The notes below the pieces were generated by a model, which saw nothing but the letters and a program-made list of their open reading frames with translations, was not told the DNA's origin and did no database searches. A stretch of DNA of 64,000 nt, taken from NCBI RefSeq assembly GCF_001713375.1, contig NZ_CP016449.1, forward strand, positions 4,610,685-4,674,684, in the 5' to 3' direction. The first letter of the stretch is position 1; each line of letters begins with the position of its first letter. This DNA comes from Hydrogenophaga sp. RAC07. Lineage in GTDB: Bacteria; Pseudomonadota; Gammaproteobacteria; Burkholderiales; Burkholderiaceae_C. Of this stretch, positions 61-13,680 are shown in pieces. The position numbers and the translations under genes were made by a program.

Positions 61-89
61 TTGATATATTGTTGATACGCGGCTATAGT
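61..89 (+). promoter_or_regulatory. Sigma70-type promoter of the protease-helicase-ExoVII operon
   Basis: A TTGATA -35 box (61-66) and a TATAGT -10 box (84-89) are separated by exactly 17 bases. The downstream ATG at 123 has GGAG at 116 to 113 as ribosome binding site. GTTGATA occurs twice (60-66 and 71-77), 11 bases apart and overlapping the -35 box, which is a plausible operator for a repressor. Seen by eye; not tested. Confidence 0.6.
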
Positions 90-122
90 AGCTCTAACTG
101 GCACAAAGTCAATGGAGTGGTG

Positions 123-1196
123 ATGGCAAATCGATTGTTGGACGACGAGGCGGCGTCGAAGGGCGTTGCGTATCTCGATGAGTGGGTGAGGCTGCTGTCG
201 GCCATAACTGCCCGGCCCACATTCGAGTTTGACGAAAGCCGCCGCTTTGCCAAGTGCGCGGTCGTCATCCCGTCTCGGGGTCGGGTCGAAGGCGAGGGCG
301 AATCAATTGAGGCAGCGACCGCGAGTCTGGCGCAAAAACTTCAGCACGTGATTTCGAGCGCAAGCACAAGCGGCCACTGGCCTGACGAATGGCACCAACT
401 TGCAAACTCCGTGCGGGTTTTGCGGAACCAACTGGTTCACGCGGATACCCCTCAAACTCTGAAGGAGACGACGGAGCGGATGACGACCAAGGAGCGCCAG
501 GAGACGATCGGCGTTTCATGCAAACGCTCATTGCAGACATTCATTGCAGGCTGTGCGGCGCACAAAGGAGAGAGTGCTGCGCAGGTGGCAAGAATGCTTC
601 TACGCGATGGATTCGAGGAGTTTGAGGAGCGTACTCTGAATCACAGTGCGAGCCGTGTCTTTGCTGCCTTCCAGAAGGACTACGACCAGCTTGTTGGATC
701 AGAAACGACTCAATGGATGGTGCGAACCAGTCCCAGTCTCTTCGTTCGAATTCGGCTCACCGCTAAAGAACATGGAAAGTCTGCCTCGCAACTAAGCGCC
801 ATGTGCATGGCCCACGCTTTGGTGAGGCAGCAAGTGACAGAGCTGGAACTTGAGAAGGCGCAGGCGCAAGTGATGGCGATTCAGGGACCAGCAGTGAGAA
901 AGTTGTCTGCCGAAATCGGACTCGGAAAGAACAGCGCACTGCTCAGCGGAGTATTGGCTGGGCGGACTGCGGCTCCGAGCAAAGTATTGCAGGCGTTATC
1001 CGACCGGCTCCATGTCGCCGCTCTTGCGCTCGCAGAGTCTTTTAGGCGTTCATTTGCGCACAGCACTGTGCCGGCCTTCAAGGCCGTGGAAGGAAAGCCA
1101 GTGGTGAATCCCGAGCCGCTTAGTTGGGCGGCGGCGGTGACCTCGCTGAAACTCAGTTCGTCTGAAACAGAAGCGCTTCTCGAATTGGCCGACTGA
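123..1196 (+). CDS. Putative DNA-binding regulator/antitoxin-like protein, first gene of the operon
   Basis: A 357-aa protein that I do not recognise as a named family. I chose ATG 123 because it follows a GGAG site and lies downstream of the promoter; the longer frame from 69 would start inside the promoter. The N-terminal third is helical and holds RNQLVH, an R-x4-H pattern as in HEPN RNases, though a single short motif is weak evidence. Two central segments (about residues 125-165 and 195-235) look like ribbon-helix-helix units. The C-terminal part (about 265-310) has an HTH-like helical pattern. The stop is 8 bases before the next gene, an ImmA/IrrE-type protease-helicase. In many mobile elements ImmA-like proteases are paired with the repressor they cleave, so this protein may be that repressor. 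This is inference; it could instead be an RNase-like effector. Confidence 0.5.
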   Translation: MANRLLDDEAASKGVAYLDEWVRLLSAITARPTFEFDESRRFAKCAVVIPSRGRVEGEGESIEAATASLAQKLQHVISSASTSGHWPDEWHQLANSVRVLRNQLVHADTPQTLKETTERMTTKERQETIGVSCKRSLQTFIAGCAAHKGESAAQVARMLLRDGFEEFEERTLNHSASRVFAAFQKDYDQLVGSETTQWMVRTSPSLFVRIRLTAKEHGKSASQLSAMCMAHALVRQQVTELELEKAQAQVMAIQGPAVRKLSAEIGLGKNSALLSGVLAGRTAAPSKVLQALSDRLHVAALALAESFRRSFAHSTVPAFKAVEGKPVVNPEPLSWAAAVTSLKLSSSETEALLELAD

Positions 1197-1204
1197 AAGA
1201 AGCA

Positions 1205-4200
1205 ATGAATGCGTTCGAACGTGCGATGTCGGAGGCAGCGCACTTGCGCGCGCGTCTGCTGGGATCGTCCGTCCCTGCCAAAGCGACAGCTTCCTCCCTC
1301 GTTGGGGTGGTCGAGGAAAAGCTCAATCTGCTGATTGAACGCGTACCCGCGTCTTATAGCGAATTGGGTGGCGGAAGCGCAGTACTGAAGCGCAATGAGC
1401 GGGCCATCTATGTCGTAGACGATGTCGACGACGCGACATTCTCCTACCTGGTTGCACACGAACTCGGCCACTGGGTTCTTGACGCCGATCTGCAACCACT
1501 GACTGTGGCCTATTTGAAAGAGCTCACCGGAAGCGGAACATCTCCCGCTGCGATCCAGGTTGAAGCCTATGGCGCGCGTGAGCGGCAAGAACTCCAAGCC
1601 AACGTTTTTGCCCGAGAGTTGCTGTTGCCGCGGGAAGTGGCCAGGCAGCTGTTTCTAGCGGGTATGGGGCTCACTGAGGCGGCTCGAGAGCTTGGCATCC
1701 CCAAGGATATTGCTCGCCTTCAGTTTCTGGACGCGGTGCTGCTTCCACCCGCCGCTCCCGTTCGGCCAAGCGTGCTCCACGCGCCGAGCCCAGACCAAGC
1801 TGCCGCAGCGAAGGCATCAGAGCGTTTCGCCAATGTGGTGGCAGGTCCAGGGACGGGAAAGACGTCGACCCTGGTCCACCGGGTGCGGTATCTCGTTGAA
1901 GAGCAAGGCGTTCATCCCAGAAACATACTCGTACTGACGTTCACGAACAAGGCCGCTTTTGAGTTGATCGAGCGGCTGCGCGCCGCCGACATCCAAGGGG
2001 CATCGGAAATCTGGGCTGGAACCTTCCACGGCTTCGGGCTTGAGTTTCTGCGGAAATACCACCAGAGATTCGACCTACCACAGGATGTGTTCGTAGCGGA
2101 CCGACTGAGCGTCATGTCGTTGCTAGTTCGTGCCCTCCCTCAAGCCGACCTCAAGCACTTCTCCCGACTGGAAGATCCGTATGACTGGCTGCAGCCAGTC
2201 ATTACCGGGATCAAGCGTCTCAAGGAAGAACTGGTGACCCCGGAGATGTACAGCCAGCGGCTGCCGTCACTCGCGGCAGCGGAGCCGGAGGTCCTTGCCA
2301 AGCGCGAGGATGTGGCGAAGCTCTTCGCACTTCATGAAGCCGAGCTGCGACGCACGGGGATGGTGGACTTCGTCGATCTGGTCGCTCTACCTGCCACGGC
2401 GCTTCAAAAGGACCGTCAGCCCTTCGCCGAGCTGGTGGATGGCTTCCACCATGTTCTCGTGGACGAATACCAGGATGTGACCCAAGCGATGGTCGAGTTG
2501 GTTCGCCAGCTCGCCTTCAAGGCCAAGACCGTTTGGGTTGTAGGTGACGTCAGGCAGGCAATCCATCATTGGCGCGGCGCATCCGTCAAGAGCCTGCTCC
2601 GATTTGAGAATACTTTCGTCAAATCGGCGACCGACGGCCGAACGGGGAAGTACTCTCTTGACGTGAATCGGAGGAGCTCCACGGAGATCGTCGAGCTCGT
2701 GCAACAAGTTGGACGGGCACACGTTCTCCAGGACAGTCTTCCCTTGGGCCCGTATGTGTCGTCCAAGGGCGAGAGCGGCGTAATACCGACGCTGATCACC
2801 TGTGGCATCAAGACCGACGTGCCTGCGGCCGTGGTGGATGGCGTCAGGGCATGCCTCGATGCCGGTGTGCCGCTGGGTTCCCAGGCCGTATTGGCGAGGA
2901 AGGGTGCTGATGTCGAGAGGTTGGCTCGCGCCCTGGGTGAGGCAGCCATCCCCGTTCTGTACATCGGCGAGCTTTCGCAACGTGCCGAGATCAAGAAGCT
3001 CTTGTGCCTCATGCAGATTCTCGCGGAACGTCAGCCTTGGGGTTTGATCGGCCTGTCCGGTGACCCGAGCTACGGCATGGACCTTGCCGACATCCGCACG
3101 CTGCTCACCGCGGGCAGCGAAGAGATGCGATGGCAGCGCGGACGATGGCTTCGCGACGTCCCGCCGGGCCTGTCTCCTAGAGGCGTTGAGGTTGTGAGCA
3201 TCCTCAATCGGTTGCTCACCGGCGTCACACGCTCGACCAAACCGTGGGATTTTGTCTGTGACATGCTCCTGGAGAGGAGGCTTTTCCCGATCGACCTAAC
3301 GGATCGCAGCATCGCGGGGCAAGTCAGCCGGCTTGCACTCTGGCAGTTTGCCTACTCAGTGCGCAACGGCGATGGCGACGTGCGCGAAGCACGTCTTTCT
3401 CGCTATCTCATGCGGCAGCGACTGCGCCAGCGTATTGGGGACACCTATGTGGATCGGGAGCTGCCGCCCGAAGCGCTGGCAATGGACGCGGTTCGACTGC
3501 AAACCGTCCACGGTAGCAAAGGCCTGGAGTACGACGCGGTACACGTGGGATATGTGGAGGACGGCAGCTATGGCTCTGCGGCTCCTACGTGGGTTTCGCC
3601 GGACTCAATCCTGGACATTGTTCCCCCTGAGGTGCTGGGCAGCAGCGCCGCCGAATACGAGTTCGAAACAGCGGTCGAGCGAAATAACCTGCTGTACGTT
3701 GCCACTTCGCGGGCTCGAACCTACCTGCGCCTGTACGACGATGAGGAGTTCGGTGGCAATGACCGGGCCGAGCAGTTGGAACACTTTCCTAGGACGTACG
3801 CGGAGGAAAGCTTCGGCGGGGCTGCGTCGGGGGCGGTTGTTGAGTTGCCGGTCCTCAAGGGCGTCCCGCCCCCGCCCGTTGACTACTCGGCATTCGAAAC
3901 GTATGTGCGCTGTGGGCTCCAGTACCACTACCGATATCGCCTGGAGCTGCGCATCGATCTGGATCTGGAGGTTGGTGTGCGGGCACGGATTGCGGTAATG
4001 CACGCCCTTCGAGGTATCGCGAACGGTGAGGGAACGCCCAAAGACGTTTTTCTCGCCGCATGGGCCAAGTACAAGTTGCCCAGCAGCGGAGAAGATCCGA
4101 CGTTGTGGCGTGACGCCGTTGGCGCAGTTCGACAAGGGTTGCAAGTCATAAATGCGATTGGCGGCGAATTCTGCGAGCCGACGACTGTGATTGTGGGGCT

Positions 4201-4528
4201 GCAAGTGAATATGCCTTGGGGCCTAAGAACGAACGAGCGGTATGGAAGCACTCTTCACCTCATCCGCTTCTCATCCCGGGGCGCAAGTGACACGGCGACG
4301 TTGATGCGTCCCATGGTGAACGAGCTGGACGGACAAAAAATTAATGGAATCGTGTTGCACAACATCCGCTCGGACCAAACCATGCCGGTTGCGCCGAGCA
4401 AGGCGCTGAAGAAGACCAAGTCGGCTAAGGCTGCACTTCGTTTGCTTGATCAGGACTTCTCGCCCGTTGTCGGGCGGCACTGCGGGCGTTGCGCGTTCAT
4501 GACGTCGTGTCCCTCTCAGCCCAGGTAA
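1205..4528 (+). CDS. ImmA/IrrE metallopeptidase - UvrD/Rep-type helicase - Fe-S nuclease-like fusion
   Basis: A 1107-aa fusion. Residues 1-180 form an ImmA/IrrE-type zinc peptidase with HELGH and a downstream ELQANVFARELLLP helix that supplies the third ligand. Residues 200-870 form a superfamily 1A helicase: Walker A GPGTGKT, TFTNKAA, TFHGF, DEYQD (Walker B), GDVRQAIHHWRGA, TVHGSKGLEYD and YVATSRA. The tail (880-1107) resembles AddB/Cas4/RecB-like Fe-S nucleases: one Cys in YVRCGLQYHYRY and a terminal CGRCAFMTSC (C-x2-C-x5-C). I could not find the usual acidic residues and QxxxY or D/E-x-K signature of an active PD-(D/E)xK site, so the nuclease fold may be inactive. The gene is followed by ExoVII subunit genes, which could supply nuclease activity. 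The fusion of protease and helicase suggests damage or phage sensing coupled to DNA processing. Confidence 0.85.
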   Translation: MNAFERAMSEAAHLRARLLGSSVPAKATASSLVGVVEEKLNLLIERVPASYSELGGGSAVLKRNERAIYVVDDVDDATFSYLVAHELGHWVLDADLQPLTVAYLKELTGSGTSPAAIQVEAYGARERQELQANVFARELLLPREVARQLFLAGMGLTEAARELGIPKDIARLQFLDAVLLPPAAPVRPSVLHAPSPDQAAAAKASERFANVVAGPGTGKTSTLVHRVRYLVEEQGVHPRNILVLTFTNKAAFELIERLRAADIQGASEIWAGTFHGFGLEFLRKYHQRFDLPQDVFVADRLSVMSLLVRALPQADLKHFSRLEDPYDWLQPVITGIKRLKEELVTPEMYSQRLPSLAAAEPEVLAKREDVAKLFALHEAELRRTGMVDFVDLVALPATALQKDRQPFAELVDGFHHVLVDEYQDVTQAMVELVRQLAFKAKTVWVVGDVRQAIHHWRGASVKSLLRFENTFVKSATDGRTGKYSLDVNRRSSTEIVELVQQVGRAHVLQDSLPLGPYVSSKGESGVIPTLITCGIKTDVPAAVVDGVRACLDAGVPLGSQAVLARKGADVERLARALGEAAIPVLYIGELSQRAEIKKLLCLMQILAERQPWGLIGLSGDPSYGMDLADIRTLLTAGSEEMRWQRGRWLRDVPPGLSPRGVEVVSILNRLLTGVTRSTKPWDFVCDMLLERRLFPIDLTDRSIAGQVSRLALWQFAYSVRNGDGDVREARLSRYLMRQRLRQRIGDTYVDRELPPEALAMDAVRLQTVHGSKGLEYDAVHVGYVEDGSYGSAAPTWVSPDSILDIVPPEVLGSSAAEYEFETAVERNNLLYVATSRARTYLRLYDDEEFGGNDRAEQLEHFPRTYAEESFGGAASGAVVELPVLKGVPPPPVDYSAFETYVRCGLQYHYRYRLELRIDLDLEVGVRARIAVMHALRGIANGEGTPKDVFLAAWAKYKLPSSGEDPTLWRDAVGAVRQGLQVINAIGGEFCEPTTVIVGLQVNMPWGLRTNERYGSTLHLIRFSSRGASDTATLMRPMVNELDGQKINGIVLHNIRSDQTMPVAPSKALKKTKSAKAALRLLDQDFSPVVGRHCGRCAFMTSCPSQPR

Positions 4529-4554
4529 AAGAGCAACTCGAATCGGACTGGATC

Positions 4555-6291
4555 ATGGCTCGCCAATACCTTGACGTACCCTACCGGGAAAAGGACGCTG
4601 CCAAGGCGCTTGGCGCGCGTTTCGACGGGGGCGTCAAGCGCTGGTACGTGGAGGACGGCGTTGAGCTTGCCGCCTTCCACGTATGGTTGCCGGCCGAACT
4701 TGCGTTGGCACCCTCGCCCGGCAGCGTCTCAGACATCGCTTCTTCGAACTCGGACACGACGACTGTTCGGCGCGGCGTACCCCTTTCGCGACTCCTGAGC
4801 AGTGTCTCTGCGGCCGTTGCCGAAGCATTTTCAAACGGTGTGTGGACCATGGTCGAGGTCAACGAAGCCACCCTGCGCGGGGGCCATGTGTACCTGGAAC
4901 TGTCTGAACGCGATGGTGCCGGACAGCCAGTTGCGAAGGCCAAAGGCATGATTTGGGCGAACACTGTGGCGCGAATCCTCCCAGAGTTTGAGAAGGCTAC
5001 TGGGGCCGTCATCGGCGCTGGGATCAAGCTGCTGGTGCGAGCAAGGCCGGTTTTCAAGCCGCAATACGGTTTCAGCCTGGAGATCGATGCGATCGATCCG
5101 GAGTACACACTTGGCGACCTTGAAGCCAAGAAGCGTGAAATACGGACTCGACTGCAGCAGGAAGGGCTCTTCGAATGCAATCGAAAGCTCACCGCGCCAA
5201 CCGATTTTCAACTTGTACTGGTCGTATCGCCACCAGAGGCTGCAGGTTTGGGTGACTTTAAGAAAGAGGCAGATCGATTGGGGCGGCATGGGATCTGCCG
5301 CTTTGTCTACGCTCACAGCCGGTTTCAGGGGGAGGGTGCTGCTCGCGAGATTGTGGGCGCCGCGTTGGCTGCGCTTCGCGATATGAGCAGCACAGGACAC
5401 CCCGATGCCATCGTACTGATTCGTGGTGGCGGCGCGGCCAACGACCTGGCATGGCTGAACGACTACCACTTGGCTCGTTTCATCTGCGAGCAGTCCATTC
5501 CGGTGCTGACGGGCATCGGCCATGAAAGGGACAGCACGCTGCCCGACGAGGTGGCGAACACGCGCTTCGATACACCCAGCAAGGTGATCGCCGGTATCGA
5601 GCAGCAAATCGTGCGACGAATCCGTGAAGCCCAGCGGGCATGGGAATCGATCCTTGCCACGGCAACACAGGATTGCCGCAACGCCAGACTGGACGTGGAA
5701 CGCTCAGATGCCCAAGTCCGGGCCGATGCGACAGCTCATGTCGCACGTGCCCGGCACGACAGCGTGGCGGCTCTGAACGAGATCGCCATAAACGCGGTTC
5801 GCCAGGTGCATGACGGATCGAATCAGGTGGCGGCGATGCTGAACGAGGTTCGTGCGGGTGCCAGCATGGACATCGCCATGGCGCGGCAAGCCGTTCCCGC
5901 GCTGATGACAGCAATTCGCATCGATGCACTGTCCACATTGGCCGAGGCTAGGTCGGTCACAAGCGTCGGATACAACACTGTGGTTGACCGGACGGCGGCT
6001 CTCACGCGATCTGCCGGACTTGCGGTGCAGTCGCAGCTGCAGCGCGTTGCGGAGCGTGCTGTGGGTGCTATCAAGCAGGCGCGTAGCAGCGCACAAGCGT
6101 TGGTGCGTGAGGTAGCTGGCCAAGGCCCCGAAAAAACGCTTGGCCGCGGGTTCGCGATCGTCAGAAATGGGGACGGCAGGCCGGTGACATCGAAGGAGGT
6201 CGCACAGGCGTCTTCCAGACTCAGCATCCAGTTTCGGGACGGGACGGCCGATGTCGTTCCAGCGCCCAAACAACAAAGGAGCACCAGATGA
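4555..6291 (+). CDS. Exonuclease VII large subunit homologue with N-terminal DUF5710-like domain
   Basis: A 578-aa protein starting at ATG 4555, 26 bases after the helicase stop; a longer in-frame start at 4489 would overlap the helicase. Residues 1-45 form a DUF5710-like module (YLDVPYREKDAAKALGARFD then KRWYV), known from DNA-processing and plasmid proteins. An OB-fold (about 75-185) and the XseA catalytic core follow, with RGGGAANDL and GIGHERDSTLPDEVANTRFD then TP, which contains the conserved His and Asp of ExoVII. A long helical region (about 360-540) and a GRGFAIVRNGDG segment near the end match the XseA coiled-coil and C-terminus. ExoVII degrades single-stranded DNA from both ends. 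Housekeeping XseA proteins are about 400-450 aa and lack the DUF5710-like domain, so this is a specialised paralogue. Confidence 0.88.
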   Translation: MARQYLDVPYREKDAAKALGARFDGGVKRWYVEDGVELAAFHVWLPAELALAPSPGSVSDIASSNSDTTTVRRGVPLSRLLSSVSAAVAEAFSNGVWTMVEVNEATLRGGHVYLELSERDGAGQPVAKAKGMIWANTVARILPEFEKATGAVIGAGIKLLVRARPVFKPQYGFSLEIDAIDPEYTLGDLEAKKREIRTRLQQEGLFECNRKLTAPTDFQLVLVVSPPEAAGLGDFKKEADRLGRHGICRFVYAHSRFQGEGAAREIVGAALAALRDMSSTGHPDAIVLIRGGGAANDLAWLNDYHLARFICEQSIPVLTGIGHERDSTLPDEVANTRFDTPSKVIAGIEQQIVRRIREAQRAWESILATATQDCRNARLDVERSDAQVRADATAHVARARHDSVAALNEIAINAVRQVHDGSNQVAAMLNEVRAGASMDIAMARQAVPALMTAIRIDALSTLAEARSVTSVGYNTVVDRTAALTRSAGLAVQSQLQRVAERAVGAIKQARSSAQALVREVAGQGPEKTLGRGFAIVRNGDGRPVTSKEVAQASSRLSIQFRDGTADVVPAPKQQRSTR

Positions 6292-6605
6292 CAGAAAAGA
6301 CTTTTAGAAAAGCGTTTGGCGTCCTGCAGCAGCATGCCGAGACGCTGCGTGACCAAGCCGAGCCAAATATTGATGATCTTCTGACTATCGTCCAGGAATC
6401 AGTGGAAGCGTACGGTGTTTGCAAAGAGCGCATCGACGCAGTGGAGACTGCTTTGAAGGCGGCTTTGGACGGGGCGGGCGTGGGCGCCTCCGCCACAGTT
6501 GCGCAACCCGCAATTGAGCGTGAATCTGCCAGAGCTGCCGGACAGCCTTCCAAGCCGGCGGCACCGACATCTTTCGACGATATGGATGACGACATTCCGT
6601 TCTGA
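6288..6605 (+). CDS. Exonuclease VII small subunit-like protein
   Basis: A 105-aa protein whose ATG overlaps the stop of the ExoVII large subunit gene by four bases (ATGA), indicating translational coupling. The first 65 residues form two helices with the XseB pattern (LDDLLTIVQESVEAYGVCKE-like spacing). The C-terminal 40 residues are a low-complexity Ala/Pro linker ending in an acidic tip, DDMDDDIPF. That tip strongly resembles the C-terminal peptide of single-stranded DNA-binding proteins (SSB ends DDDIPF), which recruits DNA repair enzymes. XseB proteins are usually about 80 aa and lack it. This suggests the protein mimics or borrows the SSB interaction tip. Confidence 0.8.
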   Translation: MTEKTFRKAFGVLQQHAETLRDQAEPNIDDLLTIVQESVEAYGVCKERIDAVETALKAALDGAGVGASATVAQPAIERESARAAGQPSKPAAPTSFDDMDDDIPF

Positions 6606-6704
6606 CAGGAAGAGCTTCTTGTCGCTAAGCGTATCTGAGCATCGTGAGGCTTGCGCGCCTCGATCTTCAATCCCGCGGGCTGAACGAGAACACATGAAAA
6701 GCCT

Positions 6705-6911
6705 ATGAACTACAACAGTCTCGTCGTATCGGATGACCGTATCGATCGCCTTCACGGTCAGCTGTCTTGCATTCCTGCGCTACCAACTGGGGTCCGTCCA
6801 TCGACGCCGCAGGAGCTTGAGTCGATGCTGGAAGCAGACCTGACGGAATACGAGCGGCGAACGATCACGATCCACATGATCGACTGTTCCGCTCGCCAGG
6901 GGAAGACATGA
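6705..6911 (+). CDS. Small hypothetical protein of the operon
   Basis: A 68-aa protein with no recognised domain. It overlaps the following DUF4238 gene by four bases (ATGA), the same coupling style as the ExoVII pair, which supports it being real. The sequence is soluble, with an acidic central helix (ELESMLEADLTEYERR). About 100 bases separate it from the ExoVII small subunit gene. It could be a partner or control peptide of the DUF4238 protein. No function is assigned. Confidence 0.5.
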   Translation: MNYNSLVVSDDRIDRLHGQLSCIPALPTGVRPSTPQELESMLEADLTEYERRTITIHMIDCSARQGKT

Positions 6912-7915
6912 GCGACCCCCTACAGCACTACGTCCCGAAGTTCATGTTGCGCCGATTCTGCTCCGGCAAGAATGAGTTGGTCTACGCCTACGACAAGCTT
7001 AGCGACAAGGTCTTTGCGTTTTCGACGTCGAAGAAGTCCAAGGTGGGCGTAGCCGCCGAACGGGCCATCTACGACTTTGAATTCCAGGGAGTGCCGATGA
7101 CTTTGGAGCCTTCGCTGAGCAGCCTCGAGACCAAGGCGGCCGAAGTGACCGCCAAAATCATCCAGAGCCTGCGGATCGACCCCGAATGGCATTTGGACAA
7201 GGCCACCTTGGCCGGCTTTCTTGCCGTGCAGCTTGTGCGAACAAAGGCCGCCATGGCGACGCTTGACGACCTGTCCGCGCGCATGGAGGGCTACTTCCGG
7301 TCCGAGGGGGCGCCAGAGGAATTTTTTGAGCTGGAGCCGGAAGTTGGGGACAAGGCGAACGCCAGAAAGACGCACTACACCCGGATGATCACCAATGCGC
7401 CAAATGATTTGGCGCCCTTGCTGGCGGACAAGGTCTGGCACTTGTTGCAGACCGATGAGAGCGATCCATTTCTTATGGGGGATCACCCTTTCTCCCGATA
7501 CAACGAGCCAGGCGAAGGCGTGCGCGGAACCTTGGGACTGCGATCCAAGGGGGTGCAGATTTACTTCCCGCTGACTCCCACGTTGGCACTGTGCCTCATG
7601 TGCAAAACGCATCTGGACACGATGATCGATGGGATCGAGCGCATCGACAGGCTATTGGCGGCTAGGATCGGCAATGCGGCAGAACTGCGGGCGCTGCGCT
7701 CGGAGACCATGCCGCTAGTCGAAGCCATGTTAACGGGGGGCGTGGTGAAGTGCCGACCCGAAAGCGTCGAGCACTTCAACTCATTGCAGATACTAGAGGC
7801 AGAACGCTATGTGTTCTCCTGCAAGAGCGACTTCCAGATGGCGAAGGAAATGATCGCGGCGGACGAAGCCACGCGTCACGGTCCCAGGATGGTCGAAAGG
7901 TCGGGTGCTTTTTAG
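6908..7915 (+). CDS. DUF4238 domain protein
   Basis: A 335-aa protein opening with the DUF4238 signature HYVPKFMLRRFC followed by a lysine-rich segment and an aromatic strand. DUF4238 proteins have no established activity; they are often found in defence islands and next to mobile elements. No signal peptide or membrane helix is evident. The start overlaps the stop of the preceding 68-aa gene. It is the last gene before an IS3 insertion at 8307, so the right border of the operon may have been altered. It could be a sensor or effector of the protease-helicase-ExoVII system. Confidence 0.75.
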   Translation: MSDPLQHYVPKFMLRRFCSGKNELVYAYDKLSDKVFAFSTSKKSKVGVAAERAIYDFEFQGVPMTLEPSLSSLETKAAEVTAKIIQSLRIDPEWHLDKATLAGFLAVQLVRTKAAMATLDDLSARMEGYFRSEGAPEEFFELEPEVGDKANARKTHYTRMITNAPNDLAPLLADKVWHLLQTDESDPFLMGDHPFSRYNEPGEGVRGTLGLRSKGVQIYFPLTPTLALCLMCKTHLDTMIDGIERIDRLLAARIGNAAELRALRSETMPLVEAMLTGGVVKCRPESVEHFNSLQILEAERYVFSCKSDFQMAKEMIAADEATRHGPRMVERSGAF

Positions 7916-8364: not shown

Positions 8365-8661
8365 ATGACAAGAACCCGAAGGAGCTTCACGGACGAGTTC
8401 AAACGTGAAGCAGTGAAGCTGTGCAAGCAGCCAGGCGCCACCGTGACGCACATTGCACGGGACCTGGGTATTCAGACCAGCGTGCTCAGACGTTGGGTCA
8501 CCCAGGAGCGTGGCGGGGTGTTGGACCTCAGGCCGAACCGGCCGCTTCGCAGTGAGGCCGCCACCGAGGTGGAGCGGTTGCAACGCGAACTGCGACGTGT
8601 GACCACGGAGCGCGACATCCTAAAAAAAGCGCTCGGCTACTTTGCAAAGGACCCGCAGTGA
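8365..8661 (+). CDS. IS3-family transposase OrfA
   Basis: A 98-aa DNA-binding subunit of an IS3-family transposase. It has the usual N-terminal HTH (SFTDEFKREAVKLCKQPGAT, then a recognition helix around VLRRWV) and a C-terminal leucine-zipper helix (EVERLQRELRRVTTERDILK). The A7 run just before the stop matches the programmed frameshift site that produces the OrfAB fusion. The ATG follows an AGGAGA motif in tcaggagataggcatg. It is intact, but the element cannot make full OrfAB while OrfB is split. Confidence 0.92.
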   Translation: MTRTRRSFTDEFKREAVKLCKQPGATVTHIARDLGIQTSVLRRWVTQERGGVLDLRPNRPLRSEAATEVERLQRELRRVTTERDILKKALGYFAKDPQ

Positions 8662-9251
8662 AGTACGGCTTCATCGCGCGGCATCGTAGTGTCTGGCCCA
8701 CCCGCACCATGTGCCGGGTAATGGCGGTCTCCCACAGCGGCTTCTACGAATGGATGGGCAGAGCGCCGAGCCAGCGCAGCCAGGACGACGCCAGGCTCAC
8801 CCGCCTCATCCGAGAGAGCTTCGAGCTCAGCGACCGCACCTACGGCAGTCCACGCGTCTGGCACGACCTTCGAGCGCTGGGCGAGAGTTGCGGGATGAAC
8901 CGGGTCATCCGGCTGATGCACCTGGCCAAGCTGCAGGCCCGTCACAAGCGACGCAGGCTACCTGGCGATACGGGCAGCAGGCTTGAGAACCACATCGCGC
9001 CCAACCATCTGCAGCGCGACTTCGAGGCCAATGGTCCGAACCAGAAGTGGGTGGCTGACTTCACCTACATCTGGACGGCCGAGGGCTGGCTGTATGCGGC
9101 GGCGGTGATGGACCTGTACTCACGTCGCATCGTGGGGTGGTCGATGAGCGACACCATGCAGGCCAAGATGGTGAGCGATGCTTTGTTGATGGCCCTTTGG
9201 CGGCGCGGCAAACCCAGCTCGCTGATGCATCACTCGGACCAGGGCAGTCAG

Positions 9252-10702
9252 GGCGGATTCAACTGGTCGTCGCAACACCTTCAACCAGGAGGTGTGTATG
9301 GGGCGACCCGCAGGATGGATGAAGCAATTGACAGGGAGAGACGCGATGCGCTCCCCGGGGGCTCCTGCACTTCGGCGAGAGGTCGAGCGCCAGTTCTGGG
9401 TACAGATTGCAACCGGAATCACCAGTGAGAGGGCAGCCGAGGCGGTAGGCGTATCGCAGGCGGTGGGCTCGCGCTGGTTCCGGCATCGTGGCGGCATGCC
9501 ATTGTTCATGTCGAAACCTGTATCTGGAAGATATCTGTCGTTCGCGGAGCGAGAAGAGATTGGACTTCTGCGAGCTCAAGATGTCAGCGTGCGGGAGATC
9601 GCTCGTCGTATTGGTCGAAGCCCCTCAACTGTTTCGCGGGAGTTGACGCGCAACGCTGCGACCCGCAGTGGCAAGCTCGAGTACCGGGCCTCAGTAGCGC
9701 AGTGGAAGTCGGATCTGGTCGCCAGAAGGCCCAAGCCTGCCAAGCTTGTGACGAATCAGCGTTTGCGCGTCTATGTCCAAGACCGTCTGGATGGCAAGAT
9801 CCGCGATGCCCAAGGACGGGAGGTGGCTGGACCTCGACAGGCTCCTTTCATCGGCCGCAACAAGCCTCATCGTGGTGACCGCAAATGGGTCAATGGCTGG
9901 TCGCCAGAGCAGATTGCAAACCGCCTGCAGGTCGACTTCCCGGATGATCCGTCCATGCGCATCTCTCACGAAGCCATCTACCAAGCGCTCTATATCCAGG
10001 GCAGAGGCGCCCTCAAGCGTGAGCTTGTGAGCTACCTGCGTACGGGGCGTGCTTTGCGCACACCCCGGGCCAGGTCCCAAGCCAAGGCATGGGCACATGT
10101 CAGTGAAGAGGTGATGATCTCCAGCCGCCCTGCTGAGATAGAAGATCGTGCGGTACCCGGTCACTGGGAAGGGGACCTGATCATCGGCCTGGACAGGTCG
10201 GCCATTGGCACGCTGGTGGAACGGTCAAGCCGTTTCACCATGCTCGTGCACCTGCCGCGCGAGGAAGGCTATGGACTGATTCCTCGAACAAAGAATGGTC
10301 CTGCGCTGGCAGGTTACGGAGCCATAACCATGGCCAACGCCCTCAAGAGAACAGTGACCAAGCTGCCTACCCAGCTATGGCAGTCATTGACTTGGGATCG
10401 TGGCAAGGAGCTATCCGACCATGCACGGTTCACCATCGAGTCCGGGGTGAAGGTCTTCTTTGCCGATCCTCGCAGTCCATGGCAGCGCGGTACGAACGAA
10501 AACACAAACGGGCTGCTGCGCCAATACTTCCCCAAAGGCACCGACCTGTCTCGCTGGAGCGAGCAAGAGATTCAAGCCGTGGCACTGACCTTGAACAACA
10601 GGCCACGCAAGACGTTGGGTTGGAAGACTCCGGCGGAAGCGCTCAATGACTACCTAAAATCGGCTGACCAACCCGGTGTTGCGACGACCGGTTGAATCCG
10701 CC
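9252..10702 (+). mobile_element. IS30-family insertion sequence
   Basis: The ends are 28-base inverted repeats (9252-9279 and 10675-10702) with one mismatch, starting GGCGGATTCAAC. A 3-base target duplication, CAG, flanks it (9249-9251 and 10703-10705). The size is 1451 bp with a single transposase gene. Clean ends and duplication point to a recent insertion. An isolated copy of one end lies at 62273-62299. Confidence 0.92.
9298..10695 (+). CDS. IS30-family transposase
   Basis: A 465-aa DDE transposase. The start is ATG 9298 with AGGAGG five bases upstream; a GTG six bases earlier is less likely. It has an N-terminal HTH (about residues 30-65), the IS30 HTH_38 domain (SFAEREEIGLLRA and VSVREIARRIGRSPSTVSRE) and the integrase core with HWEGDLIIG, SLTWDRGKELSDH and QRGTNENTNGLLRQYFPKG supplying D, D and E. 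The length is somewhat above the usual 380-440 aa because of the N-terminal extension. It appears intact and potentially active. Confidence 0.93.
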   Translation: MGRPAGWMKQLTGRDAMRSPGAPALRREVERQFWVQIATGITSERAAEAVGVSQAVGSRWFRHRGGMPLFMSKPVSGRYLSFAEREEIGLLRAQDVSVREIARRIGRSPSTVSRELTRNAATRSGKLEYRASVAQWKSDLVARRPKPAKLVTNQRLRVYVQDRLDGKIRDAQGREVAGPRQAPFIGRNKPHRGDRKWVNGWSPEQIANRLQVDFPDDPSMRISHEAIYQALYIQGRGALKRELVSYLRTGRALRTPRARSQAKAWAHVSEEVMISSRPAEIEDRAVPGHWEGDLIIGLDRSAIGTLVERSSRFTMLVHLPREEGYGLIPRTKNGPALAGYGAITMANALKRTVTKLPTQLWQSLTWDRGKELSDHARFTIESGVKVFFADPRSPWQRGTNENTNGLLRQYFPKGTDLSRWSEQEIQAVALTLNNRPRKTLGWKTPAEALNDYLKSADQPGVATTG

Positions 10703-11112
10703 CAGTACACCAGCGACGACTTCCAGCAGTTGCTCAAGGCACAGGGCATCACCTGCAGCATGAGCCGTCGTGGTGAATGCTGGGACAACGCTGCGATGGA
10801 GAGCTTCTTCTCATCCATGAAGACCGAGAGGCTCAGCCGCAAGGTCTACCGGACGAGGGAAGAAGCCAGGTCCGAAGTGTTCGACTACATCGAGCGCTTC
10901 TACAACCCGGTGCGCAAACACTCAAAGCTAGACTTCCTCAGCCCAGTCGACTTTGAGCAAGGCTTAATGGGCTAAGCAAACCGTCCGGGAAACTGGGGGA
11001 AGCCCAGCTTCTACCTTTCAGGTTGAACACCCACAGACGTTGCGAGGGGATTTTGCGAAACCCTCTATGCTGCGCCTAGTATCTTTGTGCGCGTTCGAGC
11101 ATTCAATCGTGA

Positions 11113-11503: not shown

Positions 11504-11649
11504 ATCATAGCCCCGAAGACGAGCACCTGCTCAATCGGTGAGGAACCTTGCGCGATCAAGCTACTCACGTGAAGATACCCCTGCACACATTGCGGGCGCG
11601 ATCAGACCGCAAACATCGAACAGCGGAATTCAAGGGAGCTGCCACCGTC

Positions 11650-13680
11650 ATGAGCGAACCTGACTTACCCCGACGCCCGACGCTGCACACTGCGCCGAGC
11701 GAGACTGAGCCTTCCTCGCTGCGCTCCTACGAAAGTGCGTCGTGTGGCCTGCTCAACCTCAATGAACTGCTCGATATTGTCGGTATCAACCAGACCCTGC
11801 TGGGCTGGCTGGGTTGGGAGCGCGGCGAATTCGATCGCTTGGAAAGTAGCAACTGCCCAAGTTTTGATGCGCTGGCCGGCATCCTGGATCACAGCTCGCG
11901 CGACGCGTTGATCGACCATGTGCGCGCCACGCGCGGTGCCACTGAGACGCGCGTGCTGCAGTTGCGCCTGTTCGGCAGAGGCGGCAAGTTCTTCACCGCC
12001 GAATTCCGCTCGCTGCCTGAGACGGATGCGCAAGGCCACTGGCTGCACACCCAGACGACGGTGATCGACGTGACCGAGCGCGCCGAGATCGAGCACCATC
12101 TGCTGGCCCGACTTGACCTGCTGCAGACCATCACCGACCGTACGCCGTCGCGCCTGGCCTATTACGACAAAGATCTGGTGTGCTGCTTCTCCAACGCGGC
12201 GCACGCGCGCGGCCACGGCCGCCTGCCTGATGACATGGTGGGTACCCACATCAGCGACGTGATGGCGGGCGACATGCTGCGCGAGATCCTGCCCAAGGTG
12301 GCCAAGGTGCTCAGCGGCGAGAAGCTGTGCTTCGAGGCTGAGCGCGCGCTGCCCGATGGCAGTGGCGGCTTCTTCGAGATCCACTACCTGCCTGACCTGC
12401 AGGACGATCGCGTCGAGGGCTTCTTCATCGAACAGATCGACATTACCGACCGCCGCCGCACCGAAGACCTTGTCTCTCACGCCAACTTCGAACTCGAGGA
12501 TCGCGTGGCGCAGCGAACCGCCGAGCTGCAGGCCAGCGAGCAGCGCTTTCGCCTCATGTCCGACGCGATCCAGGAATACGGCATCGCCTTCCTGGACTTG
12601 GACGGCTCGTTCAACGAATGGACTGACAGCGCGCAGCGCCTGTTTCAGCGCTCGCGCAGCCGCAGCATCGGACTGCCTCTCACGACGGTGTTGCCGGGCG
12701 AAAGCGTTCTGGACCTAGCACAACTGCTGGAGCGCTGCTCGACCCATGGCCATGTGGAAGAAACAGGCTGGGCCCAGCGCGGCGACGGCGGCCGCTTCTG
12801 GGCGCGCTTCACCTTGACCGCGCTGCGCAATGCGCGCGACGAGTTGCAGGGCTATTCGTGCGTGGTGAGCGACCTGACCGAGGCCAAGCGCCTGAACGAC
12901 CTGCTCAATCAATCCAACCGCGGACTGAAGGCGCAGGTGGACGAGCAGAGCAGCCAGTTGGTCAGCGTCAACAAGGAGCTCGAGGTGTTCTCGTACAGCA
13001 TTGCTCACGACATCCGTGCGCCGTTGCGCCACATCAGTCAGTTCGTGGGTCTGAGCCAGGAGGTCCTGGATCCGCAGAAGGACGCCCAGGTGCTCCAGTT
13101 CCAGGCGTCGATCGTGGCGGCCAGCCAGCGCATGAGCCAGATGATCGAAGGGTTGCTGGAGTACACGCGGTTGGGTCGTGCGCCATTGGATATCGGCCCG
13201 GTGCCCCTGACCCCGCTGGTGCAAGGCGTGGTGAGCCACCTGCGATCCGAGCAACCCGGCCAACGCATCGAATGGGTGCTCGATCCGAACCTGCCCATCA
13301 TCGAGGCCGATCCGATCCTGCTGGGCGAGGTGCTGAGCAAGCTGTTGGATAACGCGGTCAAGTTCACCCGCCGCAGTGCCGAGCCACGCATCGAGGTGGG
13401 CGCGCAGAGCGGGCCCCACGGGCACGCCACCGTGTACGTGCGTGATAACGGTGTTGGTTTTGATCGGGACCGCGCGCGCAACCTGTTCGTCATGTTCCAG
13501 CGCCAGCACCATTCGATGGACTACGAAGGTGTGGGCACCGGGCTGGCGCTGGTGCACCGCATCATCGAGCGCCACGGTGGCCGCATCTGGTGCGATACAG
13601 CGCCCAGCCAGGGCTGCACCTTCTACCTGGAGCTACCCACGCCCGAGCAGGCCGACTTCCAAACCGACGTCCCGGTTTAA
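11650..13680 (+). CDS. Soluble PAS-domain histidine kinase
   Basis: A 676-aa sensor kinase without membrane helices. The start is ATG 11650 behind AAGGGAG; an upstream TTG at 11548 is possible. Three PAS-like regions (about 35-150, 155-275, 300-410) are each followed by the typical D-x-T/S-E linker. A coiled helix follows, then HisKA with SIAHDIRAPLRHI and HATPase_c with LLDNAVKF (N box), DNGVGFD (G1) and GTGLALVHR (G2). The kinase half is of the bacteriophytochrome/Cph1 type. No response regulator is adjacent, so it is an orphan. It lies just after the truncated CHASE-type sensor and IS scar; its promoter may sit in 11504-11649. Confidence 0.88.
   Translation: MSEPDLPRRPTLHTAPSETEPSSLRSYESASCGLLNLNELLDIVGINQTLLGWLGWERGEFDRLESSNCPSFDALAGILDHSSRDALIDHVRATRGATETRVLQLRLFGRGGKFFTAEFRSLPETDAQGHWLHTQTTVIDVTERAEIEHHLLARLDLLQTITDRTPSRLAYYDKDLVCCFSNAAHARGHGRLPDDMVGTHISDVMAGDMLREILPKVAKVLSGEKLCFEAERALPDGSGGFFEIHYLPDLQDDRVEGFFIEQIDITDRRRTEDLVSHANFELEDRVAQRTAELQASEQRFRLMSDAIQEYGIAFLDLDGSFNEWTDSAQRLFQRSRSRSIGLPLTTVLPGESVLDLAQLLERCSTHGHVEETGWAQRGDGGRFWARFTLTALRNARDELQGYSCVVSDLTEAKRLNDLLNQSNRGLKAQVDEQSSQLVSVNKELEVFSYSIAHDIRAPLRHISQFVGLSQEVLDPQKDAQVLQFQASIVAASQRMSQMIEGLLEYTRLGRAPLDIGPVPLTPLVQGVVSHLRSEQPGQRIEWVLDPNLPIIEADPILLGEVLSKLLDNAVKFTRRSAEPRIEVGAQSGPHGHATVYVRDNGVGFDRDRARNLFVMFQRQHHSMDYEGVGTGLALVHRIIERHGGRIWCDTAPSQGCTFYLELPTPEQADFQTDVPV

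Follow-up and report, generated by a model that had tools for sequence, protein, structure and literature searches.

A possible defence-island locus in Hydrogenophaga that combines a regulator-helicase cassette with an exonuclease VII carrying an SSB-type tip

Six adjacent genes in Hydrogenophaga sp. RAC07 raise the question of whether a protease-helicase fusion, an exonuclease VII pair and a DUF4238 protein can be read as one DNA-targeting system, as a preliminary description proposed. All six are intact + strand open reading frames near the start of the window, by which we mean the whole 64,000-nucleotide stretch of contig NZ_CP016449.1 that was analyzed. They are P0001 (123-1196; 357 amino acids counted from its ATG, 375 from a TTG at 69), P0002 (1205-4528; 1107 amino acids), P0003 (4555-6291; 578 amino acids from its ATG, 600 from a TTG at 4489), P0004 (6288-6605; 105 amino acids), P0005 (6705-6911; a 68-residue frame) and P0006 (6908-7915; 335 amino acids). 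The common direction and the gene content given previously were thus borne out, the latter by the domain matches detailed below. The junctions measure, in order, 8, 26, -4, 99 and -4 nt; the several ATGA overlaps that had been reported come down to two, the other three of the five junctions having none. Because a 99 nt gap precedes P0005, common transcription of all six genes from one promoter is only putative. A tRNA-Arg gene lies to the left of the cluster, and a search for an integration site found no exact copy, 14 bases or longer, of this tRNA or its 3' flank within the window. Directly after the cluster are transposase-like frames, named by eye (8365-10975). A defence-type setting for the six genes is plausible.

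The region ahead of P0001 also serves a divergent gene. This encodes a TauD/TfdA-like Fe(II)/2-oxoglutarate dioxygenase of 338 amino acids (PF02668, 37.9 bits against a cut-off of 27); it starts at window position 51 on the - strand, has its first 17 codons at 1-51, and exits the window leftward (G000:C1 4609719-4610735, equal to L079:11720-12736). Between it and P0001 lies a putative operator, GTTGATATATTGTTGATA (60-77, + strand), in which GTTGATA occurs twice as a direct repeat with 11-nt spacing. The identical 18-bp word is found in the corresponding TauD/P0001 intergenic region of a second genome, G365, and each genome has it just once, even when up to two mismatches are allowed. In 1000 shuffled pairs, the longest word in common was 10, versus 18 bp in the real pair. 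Sixteen exact matches in viral contigs were taken as chance; when TauD, P0001, P0002, Xse, Bil and multiubiquitin sequences were run by tblastn against the stretches fetched, none of the sixteen lay on a stretch with a match. TTGATA/TATCAA words were absent from the 200 bases upstream of sigma-like genes at five ubiquitin-type loci. Overlapping the operator is a sigma-70-like promoter, TTGATA-17-TATAGT (61-89, + strand), which is a consensus match only: it scores 10/12, and the 8.4 kb hold three such sites versus 1.8 expected from shuffles. The single clear promoter of the preliminary description therefore survives as a promoter-like site, but in a region shared with the TauD-like gene.

P0001 is probably a regulator with RHH-like segments, a reading based on sequence pattern; no family match to it was significant, and one was weak (SeqA_N, E 0.026). 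Its residues 241-357 match a protein of about 200 amino acids that is encoded upstream of ImmA-UvrD genes in ubiquitin-like operons (hhalign probability 87.4, E 3.6e-6), and its N-terminal part is longer than in this counterpart. The ~200-residue family had no significant match among profiles of solved structures. A HEPN assignment was rejected as sub-threshold (15.8 versus 24.4 bits), and a single-sequence structure model of P0001 was discarded at pLDDT 42. The protein is rare: among 398 genomes sampled from the phylum it was present in its own genome only, and plasmid records gave no match.

P0002 joins an ImmA/IrrE metallopeptidase, a UvrD/Rep helicase and a degenerate PD-(D/E)XK-like domain. 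Pfam recognizes both Peptidase_M78 (PF06114, 30.4 bits against a cut-off of 22) and UvrD-helicase (196 bits), and the motifs are clear: HELGH at residues 85-89, Walker A at 214-220 and DEYQD at 420-424. The HExGH motif and the downstream Glu motif of ImmA/IrrE peptidases are kept in 15/15 aligned sequences. In the C-terminal domain, Fe-S type cysteines 903, 1093, 1096 and 1102 are invariant in all 22 aligned sequences, that of the window included. The nuclease motif has fared differently. Its Asp, which corresponds to the one within VVDLKTG of PDB chain 6ppu, is missing from 15 of 15 aligned sequences, P0002 among them, and its Lys, retained in four of 15 relatives (L081-L084), is also absent from P0002; with the catalytic Asp missing, the nuclease domain looks dead.

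The architecture of P0002 recalls known systems and departs from each. In having a PD-(D/E)XK-like domain with Fe-S type cysteines after its UvrD core, it resembles AdnAB, AddAB and RecB-type enzymes, and the P0002 profile matches the UvrD/REP chains 6ppu and 6ppj at E 1e-4, chains that we take to be mycobacterial AdnAB. P0002, however, lacks the catalytic Asp, and with it the active D-x-K nuclease motif that defines AdnAB/AddAB, and carries an N-terminal ImmA domain; the six genes include no second helicase subunit. Most of the PADLOC matches listed for P0002 are to GajB models of Gabija, through the generic UvrD core, and the other five proteins have no PADLOC match at all. Gabija was ruled out: the six genes lack a GajA-type (OLD-type ATPase-TOPRIM) domain. 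P0002 also differs from GajB in its added ImmA and Fe-S domains.

Where else, then, does the fusion occur? ImmA-UvrD is present in seven of 399 genomes of the order, and the family is mostly a companion of ubiquitin-like conjugation genes, either Bil or multiubiquitin/ThiF, which adjoin it in 20/23 loci read. In 9/23 of these loci, relatives of P0002 and the ~200-residue protein are encoded upstream of Bil genes (BilABCD, the ISG15-like ubiquitin-like anti-phage system), including those of Variovorax, Caenimonas, Xanthomonas, Rhizobium and Roseovarius. In 11/23 the cassette lies alongside multiubiquitin, Prok-E2 family E, ThiF-JAB and DUF6527 operons. Clusters of this multiubiquitin type were described by Iyer et al. 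(2006); a term search of the portion of that article's text consulted (PMC1779556) found neither "helicase" nor "UvrD". In a literature that took in few subscription papers or preprints, no title or opening of an abstract dealt with ImmA-UvrD alongside Bil or multiubiquitin, and we do not claim its absence from print. The window differs from both kinds of locus. In place of Bil genes it has the TauD-like gene and XseAB, and the gene upstream of P0002 is P0001, with its longer N-terminal part; BilA, BilB, BilC and BilD do not occur together in it, tblastn found no Bil relative across the whole window or the upstream stretch L079, and PADLOC assigned no Bil model to the six proteins (for P0002, among the 25 matches listed). 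It also holds no relative of the genes of multiubiquitin-type operons. The nearest arrangement is that of G365; no further genome was found to combine P0001 with a close ImmA-UvrD. In G365, homologues of the TauD-like protein, P0001 and P0002 (46%, 36% and 53% identical) keep the same order. The G365 locus is flanked by restriction genes, and neither XseAB nor DUF4238 occurs within the 20 kb read. This variant of the cassette is thus known from two genomes.

P0003 and P0004 make up a second exonuclease VII, the host having its own xseA and xseB elsewhere in the genome. P0003 consists of DUF5710 (residues 3-46; 67 bits), an OB fold and an exonuclease VII large subunit with a long helical region (Exonuc_VII_L, 178 bits; TIGR00237, 228 bits against a cut-off of 180). 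P0004, the small subunit XseB, falls under the cut-off of Pfam PF02609 (14 versus 24) but well over that of NCBIfam NF045605 (95.7 versus 40). Residues R290, G291-293, H323 and D326 of P0003 are invariant in 32/32 aligned sequences, H323 and D326 being of catalytic type, and its RGGG and GxGHExD regions align with E. coli XseA/XseB (PDB 8txr). A large-subunit domain with a catalytic motif is thus followed by an adjacent XseB. A P0003 model matched 8txr in Foldseek at E 1e-23, with a TM of just 0.26-0.35 over the whole model. The pair differs from ordinary exonuclease VII in that its XseA has an N-terminal DUF5710 and its XseB a linker and an SSB-like tip.

The last ten residues of P0004, FDDMDDDIPF (6573-6602, + strand), are identical to those of the host SSB, and they have the form of an SSB-type C-terminus, acidic residues and then hydrophobic-Pro-Phe at the extreme end. 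An acidic-x-P-F tip ends 50 of 61 readable XseB relatives, versus one of 30 housekeeping XseB proteins; among neighboring frames it occurs in 1/473, that one a true SSB. Here it sits on an exonuclease subunit, whereas in SSB it belongs to a DNA-binding OB-fold protein. The tip is missing from 11/61 relatives and from the plasmid pair L100, which has a DUF5710-type XseA, and it is therefore not essential to exonuclease VII. The same literature, with few subscription papers or preprints covered, had no title or opening of an abstract on an SSB-like tip in XseB; again we do not claim its absence from print.

P0005 belongs to no significant family (a weak tail match to NF058535 reaches 14.5 bits against a cut-off of 1000). 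P0006, which overlaps it by ATGA, is a DUF4238 protein (126 bits) with relatives on 669 plasmid records; at the two plasmid loci read, it is a single + strand gene amid opposite-strand neighbors.

If the six genes formed one integrated defence system, the helicase would unwind DNA, ExoVII degrade it, DUF4238 act as an extra effector and P0001 control them all. Genes on one strand with short gaps would suit this idea, as would a helicase whose nuclease looks dead and for which a nuclease in trans makes sense; because P0002 lacks the catalytic Asp and ExoVII keeps its catalytic residues, unwinding by the one and degradation by the other is possible. Moreover, ImmA-UvrD lies near DUF5710-XseAB also in Variovorax WDL1 (with a near-copy in RA8) and Caenimonas sedimenti, making three separate arrangements in spite of the rarity of ImmA-UvrD in the order. 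We nevertheless consider such a system unlikely. At 66 other DUF5710-XseA loci, read for up to 10 kb each side on contigs that were often shorter, XseB lies directly downstream of XseA in 61/62 relatives with a detected XseB, but tblastn found no match to P0001, P0005 or P0006 nearby. ImmA-UvrD occurs at two of the 66 (two more weakly match other UvrD-like genes), and both of these pairs hold complete Bil operons, so that islands which gather defence genes would explain the pairing. G365 has the cassette without XseAB. Because the 66 loci, the 398-genome sample and G365 all disagree with it, we reject the six-gene set as a conserved unit; conservation of the neighborhood in other genomes was the check that the preliminary description had itself named, and its single system largely falls with it.

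Could XseAB instead serve plasmids and other mobile elements, in repair, conjugation or the processing of single-stranded DNA during transfer, with the tip coupling it to replication or conjugation proteins? This is a somewhat better prospect, though still a minority one. XseA relatives are found on 218 plasmid records, 21 of which cover at least 80% of the query; an SSB-like gene adjoins XseAB in pPNAP03, and an SSB gene lies near it in L018. In XseAB of Pseudomonas, Acinetobacter and Burkholderia plasmids, the match begins after the DUF5710 part and the XseB tip is absent. Against this reading, PADLOC matches among 90 XseAB neighbors include ZorA/ZorD, SspF, DpdE, BilD, an oligonucleotide cyclase, HsdS and type IV DinG, in the first 25 of 166 families and with no control set. 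The Pfam families listed for the same neighbors are mostly ordinary, which weighs against a defence reading. Pattern scans of viral contigs confirmed no relative of P0003, and likewise none of P0002, which was also absent from phage records at E<=1e-60. Forty phage records have XseA-like proteins; in each of the ten listed, the match starts at query residue 90 or beyond and does not reach into DUF5710. A phage origin of P0002 and P0003 was rejected on these searches. Insertion sequences might also have piled the genes together by chance, with no role in common. The transposase-like frames directly after the cluster, and the fact that its modules are separable, favor this, but six intact frames with short gaps and two ATGA overlaps, and an operator-like word retained at the head of the operon, make it improbable.

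The explanation that we prefer, and to which we give an even chance, is a defence-island locus of separable modules: A, the regulator-helicase cassette; B, an SSB-mimicking exonuclease VII; and C, P0005-DUF4238. It draws together the domain content, motifs, recurring neighborhoods, shared operator-like word and tip identity observed in the sequences. P0001 would bind the GTTGATA repeat and so repress both its own gene and the TauD-like one that diverges from it. P0002 would be an SF1A helicase with an N-terminal ImmA-type metallopeptidase and a C-terminal nuclease-dead Fe-S type domain. By analogy with ImmA/ImmR, on which both peptidase activation and regulator cleavage are modeled, abnormal or single-stranded DNA engaged by its motor would trigger the peptidase to cut P0001, probably in the shared C-terminal domain, and thereby switch the locus on. 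That the P0002 peptidase cleaves its partner P0001 is proposed from their adjacency and the C-terminal domain in common. Module B, a second and mobile exonuclease VII, would break down single-stranded DNA, and its XseB tips may dock on the usual protein partners of the SSB tail; module C would be a further accessory pair. Adjacency in the window and at two other loci suggests that A and B may act jointly, and any cooperation that extends to C, like the defence role itself, would be part of the same model. A bolder version, which we regard as doubtful, makes the regulator and ImmA-UvrD-FeS protein a portable sensor cassette placed before interchangeable effectors, ubiquitin-like conjugation elsewhere and ExoVII with the TauD-like oxygenase here. 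The helicase would meet foreign or stalled DNA and the protease free the operon; many XseB tails would let ExoVII seize the network of proteins that dock on SSB and degrade intermediates that are single-stranded.

Should the tip prove functional, a nuclease would have gained the docking tail of SSB, and with it would come direct access to the repair and replication factors of the cell. A functional link with the Bil and multiubiquitin operons would make the cassette a candidate for a sensor or regulator of bacterial ubiquitin-like immunity.

The six genes of the preliminary description lie intact and all on the + strand at 123-7915, in the window that forms the final 64 kb (G000:C1 4610685-4674684) of a single-contig genome of 4.67 Mb. 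The junctions between them measure 8, 26, -4, 99 and -4 nt. They encode a putative regulator (P0001); an ImmA-UvrD fusion (P0002) with Peptidase_M78, UvrD-helicase and UvrD_C domains plus a short PDDEXK_1 match below threshold; an exonuclease VII pair, XseA (P0003; DUF5710, OB fold, ExoVII_L) and XseB (P0004, by NCBIfam); a 68-aa ORF (P0005); and a DUF4238 protein (P0006). A seventh gene, beyond those first described, starts at position 51 and runs leftward, encoding a TauD/TfdA-like dioxygenase of 338 aa. The proposal that the six genes form a single system was not borne out: matches to P0001, P0005 and P0006 occurred at 0 of 66 loci carrying XseA relatives, in the DNA fetched. The best reading of the locus is a composite defence-island operon. 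Two points are of interest, the tie of the regulator-plus-ImmA-UvrD cassette to ubiquitin-like conjugation operons and an SSB-like tip on the accessory exonuclease VII; no report of either was found in the literature searched, key Bil papers being outside its coverage.

The large neighbours of XseAB across these loci (90 of 473 ORFs) gave PADLOC matches to ZorD, ZorA, SspF, DpdE, BilD, an oligonucleotide cyclase, HsdS and type IV DinG, among the first 25 of 166 families listed, one member each, with no control set alongside; in Pfam, ordinary families predominate among the 25 listed. To the left of the TauD-like gene, a DEAD/ResIII helicase of 1163 aa (L079:8025-11516; G000:C1 4606024-4609515) matches PADLOC PDC-S71 in its C-terminal part (E 3.6e-21) and is possibly another defence gene. 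Further left lies a tRNA-Arg (CCG; L079:7281-7356), for whose end no repeat was found in the window. Near L079 ~7600, GC content drops from 66% on the left to 60% on the right; because the whole window is also near 60%, placing an island edge there is only a guess. DUF4238 relatives occur in 669 plasmid records. On the two plasmids read, the gene stands alone with its neighbours on the opposite strand, adjoining in one case a gene annotated anti-phage ppl and in the other one annotated abortive infection protein. In the window, IS3-like and IS30-like transposase ORFs, named by eye, directly follow the DUF4238 gene (8365-10975), one element apparently inside the other, and to their right is a PAS-rich histidine kinase gene (11548-13680).

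The regulator, the fusion and the divergent TauD-like gene are a real and separate unit. Another genome of the same order, G365, found via P0002 and not via P0001, has the same divergent arrangement, with identities to the window of 46% (TauD-like), 36% (P0001-like) and 53% (P0002-like); MvaI/BcnI, HNH and C5-methylase genes border this locus. An 18-bp word, GTTGATATATTGTTGATA, is identical in the two intergenic regions (71 bp in the window and 55 bp in G365, by the ORF starts used), against common words of at most 10 bp across 1000 shuffled pairs. It holds two copies of GTTGATA at a spacing of 11 nt, overlaps a promoter-like site and is present once in each genome, allowing up to 2 mismatches. 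The word looks like a putative operator, and we infer that the regulator acting there is, most simply, P0001. Two segments in the middle of P0001 can be read as ribbon-helix-helix, to which a single weak match, SeqA_N (E 0.026), points. P0001 is rare: of 398 genomes sampled across the phylum, only its own gave a match, and it has no relative anywhere in the plasmid collection.

At E<=1e-60, P0002 has relatives in 88 plasmid records and in 7 of 399 genomes from the order; at E<=1e-80, it has them in 2 of 369 genomes from the class. Both genome counts include its own. We read 23 distinct loci: the window, six other order genomes, the genome G1081, the fetched locus L050 and 14 plasmid loci (15 were fetched among the 88 records, one being a near-copy of another); because the plasmids were hand-picked for variety among 40 matches listed, this is not a random sample. 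Ubiquitin-like conjugation genes, detected by tblastn to reference genes, adjoin ImmA-UvrD in 20 of the 23. Nine of these loci have Bil genes, Aquincola with BilA alone, the references being BilA-D of Variovorax WDL1 (PADLOC E 2.7e-52 to 1.1e-166); the other 11 have multiubiquitin and ThiF genes, joined by DUF6527 in 10. At one of the 11, on Robbsia andropogonis p1 (L141), the multiubiquitin operon is divergent from the cassette and not downstream, which suggests that the two are separable units. The three loci without such neighbours are the window, where no Bil or multiubiquitin-type relative was found over its whole length, G365, and Pseudomonas koreensis, in which an IS66 gene follows ImmA-UvrD.

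In the ubiquitin-like operons, ImmA-UvrD usually has two genes ahead of it, one for a sigma-like HTH protein and one for a product of ~200 aa. An hhalign comparison (probability 87.4, E 3.6e-6, the P0001 side built from two sequences only) pairs the C-terminal ~115 residues of P0001 with the C-terminal part of this ~200-aa product. Both kinds of locus thus combine ImmA-UvrD with a regulator-type domain, and the protein bearing that domain becomes the natural candidate for what the ImmA domain would cut. ImmA/ImmR is a precedent for cleavage by an ImmA-type peptidase, and by analogy the ImmA domain may cleave the regulator.

The peptidase motifs of the fusion, HExGH and a downstream Glu, are kept in 15/15 sequences aligned; P0002 has Walker A and DEYQD, and four Cys are invariant in 22/22. 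Searched as a profile, the family's C-terminal region matches the same end of two UvrD/REP helicase chains, 6ppu and 6ppj (E 1e-4). At the VVDLKTG position of 6ppu the window reads TLHLIRFS; because the Asp is absent in 15/15 of the family and the Lys retained in four only (L081-L084), we conclude from these residues that the nuclease would be dead, with an Fe-S type fold retained.

Since the host carries housekeeping xseA and xseB elsewhere, the window XseAB is a second enzyme. In alignments, the window XseA keeps the ExoVII motifs: H323 and D326 of P0003 line up with the equivalent region of 8txr, a structure carrying H238A, and are invariant in 32/32 sequences. In an AlphaFold2 model (mean pLDDT 80, pTM 0.43), DUF5710, the OB fold and the catalytic domain are accompanied by a long helical arm. 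The 66 loci come from a search of genomes sampled at one per species, and most are Burkholderiales, judging by record title. At 62 of them an XseB was identified, directly downstream of XseA in 61 and separated by 3.7 kb in the exception; the other four have no XseB match, and three of these four stop at the end of XseA or within it. ImmA-UvrD is near XseAB at two loci: in Variovorax WDL1 the pair is convergent to a cassette-plus-BilABCD operon (near-copy in RA8), and in Caenimonas sedimenti BilABCD is followed ~3.4 kb on by XseAB. At L054 and L060 the matches were weak and fell on other UvrD-like genes. Azohydromonas australica has DUF5710-XseA relatives at several loci (L030, L031, L039, L063), and Rhodocyclaceae STC_64 at more than one (L018, L019).

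The window XseB ends in PTSFDDMDDDIPF and the host SSB in SSGFDDMDDDIPF. The C-terminus can be read in 61 of the 62 XseB relatives, the other being cut by a contig end; 50 of the 61 finish in Pro-Phe after acidic residues, and the absence of this tip from 11 counts against the tip reading. Over their last 30 residues, the 50 tipped proteins show 49 distinct sequences; the tip is therefore conserved on a variable linker. Among housekeeping XseB (the best-scoring 30 of 60 genomes) the tip occurs in one, L122 of G053, ending ...SYDEVPF, and the host's own lacks it; among the 473 ORFs around XseAB it occurs in one, itself an SSB. Of seven plasmid XseB, three have the tip (L101 and the identical L091 and L094), and it is missing from the other four (L100, L102, L103, L104). 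In the tipless pairs from Burkholderia, Acinetobacter and Pseudomonas the XseA match begins after DUF5710; in the pair from Variovorax sp. RA8 plasmid 3 (L100), whose XseA is annotated as two overlapping pieces, the match includes DUF5710. The genomic pairs of G008 and G057 also lack the tip. Beside or near XseAB are an SSB-like gene on pPNAP03 (L101:7064-7471) and a full SSB gene with its own tip at L018:5982-6530. E. coli ExoVII has several XseB per XseA; if the same holds here, one complex would display many tips.
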